From NCBI RefSeq assembly GCF_009883635.2, contig NZ_CP026115.2:4030001-4094000 (forward strand): DNA of 64,000 nucleotides, given 5' to 3'. The position numbers were made by a program, and so were the translations under genes. Below, in pieces: positions 48,163 through 53,092 of this stretch. Numbering within the stretch: position 1 is the first letter of the stretch; every line of letters begins with the position of its first letter. Below the pieces are notes generated by a model that saw only the letters and a program-made list of their open reading frames with translations, had not been told where the DNA came from and did not search any database. Source of the stretch: Pseudomonas putida (lineage in GTDB: Bacteria; Pseudomonadota; Gammaproteobacteria; Pseudomonadales; Pseudomonadaceae).

Positions 48163-48861
48163 TCATTCCTCGCGCAGGGTCTGGATCATGTAGTTGACGT
48201 CAACGTCGCTGCTCAGCTTGTAGTGCTTGGTCAGCGGGTTGTAGGTCAAGCCGATGATGTCCTTGACGGCAAGGCCGGCGACACGGCTCCAGGCGCCCAG
48301 CTCGGACGGGCGGATGAACTTCTTGAAGTCGTGGGTGCCGCGCGGCAGCATCTTCAGGATGTATTCAGCGCCGACGATGGCCAGCAGGTAGGCCTTGGGG
48401 TTGCGGTTGATGGTCGAGAAGAACACCTGGCCACCAGGCTTGACCATGCGGTAGCAGGCGCGGATCACCGAGGACGGGTCGGGCACGTGCTCGAGCATCT
48501 CCAGGCAGGTGACCACGTCGAACTGCTCGGGCATCTCTTCAGCCAGGGCTTCGGCGGTGATCTGCCGGTATTCGACCTCGACGCCCGACTCCAGCTGGTG
48601 CAACTGGGCAACGGCCAGTGGCGCCTCGCCCATGTCGATGCCGGTGACGGTGGCGCCGCGCAAGGCCATGGCCTCGCTGAGGATGCCGCCGCCGCAGCCG
48701 ACGTCAAGCACCTTCTTGCCCGCCAGGCCGACGCGCTCATCGATCCAGTTGACGCGCAGCGGGTTGATGTCGTGCAGCGGCTTGAACTCGCTTTCACGGT
48801 CCCACCAGCGGTGGGCCAAGGCTTCGAACTTGGCGATTTCGGCGTGGTCGACGTTGCTCAT
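48163..48861 (-). CDS. ubiG: Ubiquinone biosynthesis O-methyltransferase UbiG
   Basis: 232 residues; SAM-dependent methyltransferase with motif [17 protein letters not shown] and post motifs [13 protein letters not shown]. It performs both O-methylations of ubiquinone synthesis. ATG at 48861 ([20 protein letters not shown]) has AGAGGA 7 nt upstream. First gene of ubiG-mupP-yciK; divergent from the mtnA homologue across 112 bp. Confidence 0.93.
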
Positions 48862-48973
48862 TGAACAATCCTCTGGAACTTGCACTTCAAATGGGGCGCA
48901 GTATACCCGAGCGTCTGCGGCCGAGGGTCGCTATAATCGTCGGCTTTTGATATCCGAACGACGGGGAGAGGCG

Positions 48974-50050
48974 ATGCGCGAGCGACTTTTGGCGGCGGAG
49001 AAGGTGACCGGGATGCGCTGGCAAGGCGGCGTCCTGCACTTGCTCGATCAGCGCCTGCTGCCGTCGGAAGAACGCTGGCTGACCTGCGACAATGTCGCGC
49101 AGGTGGCGGCGGCGATTCGCGACATGGCCGTGCGTGGCGCCGCTGCCATTGGCATTGCTGCAGCCTATGGGCTGGTGCTGGCCCTGGAAGAGCGCCTGGC
49201 CCAGGGCGGCGACTGGGAAATGGACCTGGAGGAGGACTTCCTCAGCCTGGCCGAAGCCCGGCCCACTGCAGCCAACCTGTTCTGGGCGCTGAACCGCATG
49301 CGCGAGCGCCTGTTGCGTGTGCGAGGCGAAGAAGACGTGCTGGCCGTGCTGGAAGCCGAAGCGATTGCCATCCATGAAAGTGACCGCGAAGCCAACCTGA
49401 CCATGGCCCAGCATGGCATCGAGCTGATCCGTCGCCATCAGGGCAACGAGCAGACCTTGCTGACCTACGGCAACGCCGGCGCCCTGGCCAGCGGTGGTAT
49501 CGGTACGGCCCTGGGGGTGATTCGCGCCGGTTATCTGGAGGGAATGGTCGAGCGTGTGTATGCCGGTGAGACCCGCCCTTGGCTGCAGGGTTCGCGCCTG
49601 ACGGCCTGGGAGCTGGCCAACGAGGGCATCCCGGTGACCCTGTGCGCTGACTCGGCGCTGGCCCACCTGATGAAGACCAAGGGGATCACCTGGGTGGTGG
49701 TCGGCGCCGACTGCATCGCCGCCAATGGTGATGTGGCGAGCAAGATCGGCACCTATCAGCTGGCCGTCAGTGCCATGCACCATGGCGTGCGCTTCATGGT
49801 GGTGGCGTCGAGCACCAGCATCGACCTCAACCTGGCTACTGGCGAGGACATTCCGCTGGAAGAGCGTGAGGCCGATGAGCTGCTGGACTACGCCGGCACC
49901 CGCGTGGCGCCGCAGGTCGAGGCATTCAACCCGGTGTTCGACGTGACCCCGGCCGACCTGGTCGACGTGATCGTCACCGAGCGCGGCATCGTCGAGCGAC
50001 CGGATACCGCCAAGCTGGCCCAGCTGATGTGTCGCAAGCGGTTGCATTGA
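48974..50050 (+). CDS. mtnA: MtnA/eIF2B-like sugar-phosphate isomerase homologue with altered active site
   Basis: 358 residues, the length and overall sequence of methylthioribose-1-phosphate isomerase (methionine salvage): [62 protein letters not shown]. Core residues differ. The catalytic Cys of the family HCN-GALAT motif is Gly ([15 protein letters not shown]166), while the partner Asp in GAD (D246) is kept at the 80-residue spacing of B. subtilis MtnA (C160/D240). RGAPAIG reads RGAAAIG, GADR reads GADC and NADSAAAH reads CADSALAH. The frame is intact with a strong GGGGAGAGG ribosome site. It may have a changed or lost activity. Confidence 0.8.

Positions 50051-50329: not shown

Positions 50330-53092
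<2,763 letters not shown>

Follow-up and report, generated by a model that had tools for sequence, protein, structure and literature searches.

The mtnA locus and its product

The window analyzed in this work is a stretch of 64,000 nucleotides of the Pseudomonas putida genome (NZ_CP026115.2, positions 4,030,001 to 4,094,000), in which an mtnA-family gene lies between ubiG and gyrA (Table 1). By family scores and fold its product is an MtnA: the match to TIGR00512 is full length (415 bits against a cut-off of 279), PF01008 scores 241 bits, and the nearest folds to its MtnA fold include 4LDQ/4LDR, structures entitled Mediator of Rho Dependent Invasion. The pocket loops of the AlphaFold model are of low confidence, and no pocket geometry was derived from it. 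The motif HCN(T/A)GALAT, whose catalytic Cys characterizes MtnA (EC 5.3.1.23), reads [13 protein letters not shown] here, with Gly at residue 166 and with the further changes H165 to Y and T173 to S. Translation of the ORF thus bears out the original prediction that Gly166 replaces the catalytic Cys while Asp246, the catalytic Asp of GADR, is retained, though its neighboring Arg is Cys247. The 80-residue spacing claimed to equal that of the Bacillus subtilis enzyme is correct: the Cys and Asp of 2YRF pair with Gly166 and Asp246, respectively, and the alignment is ungapped from one to the other.

In P. aeruginosa, according to passages of PMC6302742, MTA is deaminated to MTI, which is then cleaved to methylthioribose-1-phosphate (MTR-1-P), the substrate of MtnA; genomes with the MTR-1-P-forming enzyme methylthioinosine phosphorylase (MTIP) over cut-off are called MTIP+ below. 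Two further changes said to affect invariant spots, RGAPAIG to RGAAAIG (P57A) and GADR to GADC (R247C), do affect positions that are invariant in all 41 MTIP+ genomes of the genus and in all 19 translated outgroup sequences. The same had been said of NADS, where it does not apply, since N occupies position 224 in just four of the 19 outgroups. A change that had been overlooked is N256 to S, which by motif and spacing would affect the sugar-contacting Asn of R15P isomerase. The suggested check of the genome for a second, canonical mtnA found none, with a single PF01008 match genome-wide. A promoter and terminator scan gave no match.

Table 1. Features of the mtnA locus (positions in the window)
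Feature	Position	Strand	Remarks
ubiG	48163..48885	-	divergent neighbor; control gene for dN/dS
ubiG-mtnA gap	48886..48973		88 bp
Shine-Dalgarno-like GGGGAG	48963..48968	+	ends five bases 5' of ATG 48974; read from sequence
mtnA-family ORF	48974..50050	+	358 aa, ATG start, PF01008, Gly166 for catalytic Cys
Codons 54-57, RGAA	49133..49144	+	Arg54 (phosphate contact by homology) retained, Pro57 to Ala
Codon 166	49469..49471	+	GGC (Gly); Cys in 19/19 translated outgroup MtnA and in 41/41 MTIP+ genomes (of 71)
Codon 224	49643..49645	+	TGC (Cys, 'CADS'); position not invariant in family
Codons 246-247	49709..49714	+	catalytic Asp246 retained (49709-49711), adjacent Arg to Cys
Codons 256-257	49739..49744	+	Asn to Ser, Lys retained; putatively Asn214-Lys215 of R15P isomerase (motif and spacing)
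gyrA	50330..53092	+	downstream neighbor; tree marker

The short gap between ubiG and mtnA is where other genomes carry the MTA deaminase gene: among 119 fetched loci whose flank was long enough, 92 have a gap of 1,400-1,800 bp here, and the deaminase gene is absent from it in the host. Genome-wide, four of 71 genomes had no MTA deaminase match at E 1e-60 or better, and the gene was matched in 26 of the 30 genomes without MTIP; it is split over two pieces in G052 and contains a TGA in G003. Outside the window the host genome encodes a divergent 209-aa MTA/SAH-nucleosidase-like protein (L220:5072-5701, + strand) which matches PF01048 and reaches none of the NCBIfam cut-offs. Similar short and divergent matches to PF01048 were found in four of 40 genomes, exactly the four without MTA deaminase, and perhaps represent a replacement route for MTA. 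On the other side of mtnA, the host GyrA (920 aa) has acidic stretches in its C-terminal part which are missing from the 884-aa GyrA of L097.

Residue 166 across the genus

Residue 166 was read in 239 of 398 sampled Pseudomonas genomes, the readings comprising 119 translated loci (71 + 25 + 23) and 120 loci among the pattern matches listed. Cys was found in 133, Gly in 101, Ser in four and Ala in one, so that 106 genomes are Cys-less; the host had been taken for an outlier among pseudomonads with canonical MtnA, which it is not. Among the 71 genus genomes with translated MtnA there were 49 with Cys, 21 with Gly and one with Ala, while HCN is present in all 19 translated outgroup sequences (of 23 matched outside the genus). 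The best 80 named GTDB loci comprised 57 with Gly and 23 with Cys. Gly166 is present on the P. putida side of the genus in P. fulva, P. parafulva, P. plecoglossicida, P. monteilii, P. capeferrum, and P. entomophila, and in part of the P. fluorescens side in P. simiae, P. extremorientalis, P. marginalis, P. canadensis, and P. cedrina, the two side labels being taken from record names. A single-strain oddity was rejected, the Cys-less state being found in many independent assemblies. It should be noted that the pattern TYGNAGA gave matches in 34 of the 398 genomes, two of which (G029 and G164) were in other genes and remained unused.

A match to mtnA was obtained in every one of the 71 genus genomes, as compared to 23 of 44 genomes from elsewhere in the order, some of the latter incomplete, and in the wider sample in 23 of 25 further pattern-negative genomes, the two genomes lacking a match (G328 and G410) being drafts that are 86% and 77% complete.

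The catalytic Cys has apparently been lost about six to eight times within the genus. On a gyrA tree of 68 genomes (G012, G016, and G023 were left off because gyrA was missing from the fetched stretch) a losses-only count gave seven losses and parsimony six changes, and among 400 bootstrap trees 357 gave 6-8 losses and 43 gave 9-12; the losses-only count assumes that neither regain nor interspecies recombination of mtnA occurred, either of which could lower it. All seven losses fall in lineages without MTIP, which make up 35% of the tree length, giving a chance of 0.35^7, or about 0.0007. The nesting of Cys loss within MTIP absence is implied by the states at the tips and adds no evidence of its own, and an independent-pairs test was not significant, with too few pairs to reach significance.

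Pathway genes around MtnA

Loss of the Cys goes together with absence of the enzyme that makes the substrate. MTIP was absent in 105 of the 106 non-Cys genomes and in 22 of the 133 Cys genomes, in a table for which at most six candidates were scored per genome, so that a few MTIP may have been missed; for the first 71 genomes these calls agree with the scoring of all candidates. In that set of 71, scored gene by gene, MTIP was over cut-off in 41 and absent in 22 of 22 Cys-less as against eight of 49 Cys genomes. The sole exception is G177 (L262), a draft that is 88% complete, where Gly166 occurs with an MTIP over cut-off. Later steps of the pathway are distributed in a similar way, with mtnC over the curated cut-off in 33 and mtnB in 32 of the 71 genomes (in G034 mtnB is in two pieces) and neither of them in any of the 22 Cys-less genomes. 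Judged by MTIP, mtnB and mtnC alone, none of which is over cut-off, the host has neither a source of MTR-1-P nor a use for the product.

PF03079, the family of the pathway dioxygenase, is less informative. The host has a partial match of 40 bits, still above the Pfam cut-off of 27, and 70 of the 71 genomes pass this cut-off, Cys-less ones included; the dioxygenase step can therefore not be called absent. Scores of at least 114 bits occurred in 35 genomes, none of them Cys-less, and the Gly166 genomes G048 and G059 scored about 97 bits (up to 97.7). PF01048, which includes MTIP, MTA phosphorylase and MTA nucleosidase, was searched in 40 genomes, including all 22 Cys-less ones. Each of the latter has a PF01048 protein of about 500 aa, which we take to be AMP nucleosidase, and other matches in Cys-less genomes were weak and confined to five: four have the short and divergent protein resembling a nucleosidase, and G004 has a weak match.

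Eight of the 71 genomes carry MTIP and lack mtnC over cut-off (G008, G014, G054, G058, G063, G064, G068, and G069), and since all eight have Cys166, this residue follows the supply of the substrate and not the later steps. For the same reason we set aside the possibility that a toxic product, MTRu-1-P, drives loss of the Cys after loss of mtnBDC. Within the P. putida-side clade, genome G009 (L240) has Cys166 without MTIP and encodes a DeoD-like phosphorylase, beside which lie genes that are presumably deoA, deoB, and deoC; this phosphorylase might supply substrate to MtnA.

Residues retained and lost

Comparison of MTIP+ genomes with the outgroups defined 72 positions that are invariant in the former and in at least 18 of the 19 latter sequences, and 20 of these positions vary among 20 Cys-less proteins (the more variable G001 and G043 were left out of these counts). 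Ligand contacts were mapped from R15P isomerase by motif and spacing, following passages of PMC5789824. The ten ligand-contact positions were changed in 56 of 200 cells and the other 62 invariant positions in 59 of 1240, a comparison which treats related sequences and cells as independent. Erosion is thus preferential for the pocket, and within the pocket it is uneven: Arg54 and Arg96 are retained in all 20 proteins, Lys257 in 18, Gln205 and Asp246 in 17 each, Asn256 in one and Cys166 in none, i.e., the catalytic Cys and the sugar-contacting Asn are lost and the phosphate contacts mostly stay. Asp246 is replaced by Glu in three of the 20, and also in G001 and G043, and Lys257 by Thr in two. 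R247C and N256S recur on both P. putida-side and P. fluorescens-side lineages. Among the eight Cys166 genomes without MTIP, Asn256 had varied in three and Arg247 in two (G039 and G051), as if the pocket were to loosen before the Cys goes.

A divergent clade of six MtnA proteins (G001, locus L194, with G191, G402, G208, G438, and G426, loci L263-L267) has about 56% identity, is intact and carries Gly166. Here Arg54, Arg96, Lys257, and Asp246 are changed in all six, with Glu at 246, and four of the six have Cys167. The clade keeps 38 of 79 family-wide invariants as against 41 of 59 Pseudomonas-specific positions, whereas the 20 other Cys-less proteins show the ordinary order, with 56 of 79 family-wide positions conserved in every one of them and 35 of 59 of the lineage-specific ones; conservation of the Pseudomonas-specific kind partly reflects shared ancestry. 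Positions conserved throughout the genus, the divergent clade included, but not in the outgroups lie at the N-terminus, at the C-terminal end and within residues 137-160, among other places.

Selection on the Cys-less genes

All 147 Cys-less loci (several loci from one genome included) are full length and free of stops. Their codon 166 is GGC or GGT in 141, AGC or TCC in four and GCC in two, and none encodes Arg, Tyr, Phe, Trp or a stop, each of which is one base from TGC. Codon-model omega of mtnA was 0.037 in Gly loci of the P. putida core (14 loci) and 0.047 in those of the P. fluorescens side (12 loci), as compared to 0.036 in a set of 14 Cys loci; neighboring genes gave 0.008-0.014 (ubiG), 0.030-0.038 (mupP) and 0.042-0.053 (deaminase). 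When the two genes were compared within the same genomes, the omega of mtnA was 3-6 times higher than that of ubiG in the Gly sets and 2.6 times higher in the Cys set. By NG86, dN/dS of close pairs was 0.081 and 0.062 in Gly groups versus 0.033 in the Cys group, and wider pairs gave 0.080 and 0.172 (Gly) and 0.063 (Cys) for mtnA and 0.052, 0.079, and 0.038 for ubiG, the control being raised as well in such pairs. The higher NG86 values in the Gly groups indicate that constraint is somewhat relaxed and not gone. Even in the divergent clade omega was 0.106, so that over the range 0.037-0.106 and with 147 of 147 loci intact, the stops, frameshifts and dN/dS near 1 of a decaying pseudogene are not seen. 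The earlier argument against simple decay is upheld by the low dN/dS and the unbroken ORFs.

Discussion

We consider it probable that the Gly166 protein is a pseudoenzyme derived from an MTR-1-P isomerase, whose activity would have been lost together with the pathway and which would be kept for a non-catalytic role. Three options had been put forward, i.e., another substrate, another catalytic residue, or loss of catalysis with the protein kept, and the last of these is the best fit; the use of another residue is disfavored because no replacement Cys is common to all Cys-less proteins. In the proposed course of events the ancestral MtnA would have acted on MTR-1-P made by MTIP, loss of MTIP would have removed the substrate and ended selection on the catalytic residues, and the Cys would then have given way to a small residue, usually Gly and rarely Ser or Ala, with Asn256 and Arg247 replaced as well. 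Purifying selection may have retained the folded protein for a second role, independent of isomerization and maybe already present beside catalysis. Our confidence is good that the isomerase activity would be gone, and fair that upkeep serves a second role, while sugar-phosphate sensing would be a guess from analogy.

The analogy comes from two relatives. In passages of PMC5789824 the C135S mutant of R15P isomerase is inactive and C135A fails to bind substrate and binds the product weakly, and the position of the catalytic Cys is occupied by Ala in human eIF2B-alpha and by Gly in that of Schizosaccharomyces pombe; in passages of PMC8187479, eIF2B-alpha binds sugar phosphates in its old catalytic pocket as a regulatory signal. 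On these grounds we propose a protein without catalysis that possibly senses a ligand or serves as a scaffold. The residue changes, the missing pathway genes, the unbroken ORFs, the low dN/dS and the preferential erosion of the pocket are observed, whereas loss of activity, ligand binding and a regulatory role are inferred. Because Arg54, Arg96, and Lys257 remain in most Cys-less proteins, the likeliest form would be a regulator or scaffold which may still bind a phosphorylated ligand but would not turn it over, in the manner of eIF2B-alpha. A more far-reaching version, tentative and in our view rather doubtful, would have an ancient second, non-catalytic function of MtnA in Pseudomonas, perhaps an eIF2B-alpha-like sensing of sugar phosphates, hold the protein in place while the isomerase was lost several times.

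The protein might instead be a repurposed enzyme, acting on another sugar phosphate or catalyzing without the Cys by means of Asp246 and Lys257, to which a Cys at a new position (247 or 224, or 167 in the divergent clade) might be added. The retention of Asp246, Arg54, Arg96, Gln205, and Lys257 in 17-20 of 20 proteins is more than a dead pocket needs and leaves room for another reaction; the recurrence of R247C and N256S on both sides of the genus, the Cys adjoining Gly166 in four of the six divergent proteins and the Methanocaldococcus jannaschii enzyme, described as promiscuous toward a 5'-deoxyadenosine route (passages of PMC6302742), point the same way. We have shifted slightly from the pseudoenzyme toward repurposing because of the ordinary order of conservation in the 20 proteins, the non-discriminating PF03079 and Cys167. 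Repurposing nevertheless appears unlikely: no new residue is common to all, with Cys247 in 16 and Cys224 in four of the 20, so that a relocated catalytic Cys was rejected as a general answer, and the retained Asp246 and Lys257 are themselves replaced in some of the proteins, including Asp246 in G001 and G043. In addition, R247 has already changed in two MTIP-less genomes which still have Cys166, and the R15P isomerase mutants speak against catalysis or substrate binding once the Cys is gone.

Slow decay would make mtnA an orphan gene that is being lost and is still unbroken only because the time elapsed is too short or because it sits between ubiG and gyrA. The roughly two-fold rise of NG86 dN/dS in Gly groups, the omega of the divergent clade and the loss of the adjacent MTA deaminase from the P. 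putida core fit such a course. We regard it as quite improbable, given that every Cys-less locus is intact, that omega is close to that of the Cys set, mupP and the deaminase, that only Gly, Ser or Ala occupies position 166 in the loci read and never Arg, Tyr, Phe or Trp, and that the divergent clade retains Pseudomonas-specific positions better than family-wide ones; moreover, proximity to gyrA would put no constraint on the sequence of the protein. An error of sequencing or assembly at codon 166, which resequencing was to have revealed, has practically no probability left and is refuted, as the same change recurs with its linked changes in many independent assemblies.

The genus offers a natural experiment with some six or more apparent losses of the Cys, tied to absence of the substrate-making enzyme and with the protein kept each time. 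Such recurrent retention predicts a further role of MtnA, which is testable by gene deletion. For annotation the consequence is practical, in that the automatic name denotes an enzyme that very likely fails to work in 106 of the 239 genomes read and would mislead metabolic models of P. putida. Among the titles and abstract openings listed for MtnA in an open-access library, none described a Cys-less MtnA, and open-access literature under the P. putida locus tag consisted of unrelated papers only. The type of event is known from eIF2B, and the case of the Cys-less MtnA of Pseudomonas appears to be new.

Comparison with known systems

Measured against MtnA proper (S-methyl-5-thioribose-1-phosphate isomerase; TIGR00512; B. 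subtilis 2YRF/2YVK), the protein described here has lost the Cys, has Asn256 to Ser, Arg247 to Cys and Pro57 to Ala, and occurs without MTIP, mtnB or mtnC over cut-off. It does not belong to the archaeal ribose-1,5-bisphosphate isomerases (TIGR00511), scoring 175 bits against a cut-off of 314, and these have their Cys intact. Human MRI1 is orthologous to MtnA and has a function beyond methionine salvage; as cited in PMC6302742, it was reportedly described by Kabuyama in 2009 as a cancer-related protein. This role is said to be independent of catalysis, although human MRI1 keeps its catalytic residues.

A parallel is eIF2B-alpha, which shares the PF01008 superfamily, the replacement of the Cys by Ala or Gly and the retained fold; the likeness would be one of analogous working and not of membership. 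To our knowledge bacteria have no eIF2B, and the Pseudomonas proteins have a separate origin, inside MtnA. The pattern of contacts also differs. In eIF2B-alpha the 1-phosphate contacts are lost and the sugar and 5-phosphate contacts retained, whereas here, by motif and spacing, the 1-phosphate arginines stay (Arg54 and Arg96 in 20 of 20 Cys-less proteins) and Asn256 goes (present in one of 20). The Gly166 proteins may mirror in bacteria how eIF2B-alpha arose from an isomerase of sugar phosphates and, should the ancient second function be true, would provide a bacterial and repeated version of the change from enzyme to regulator that lies behind eIF2B.
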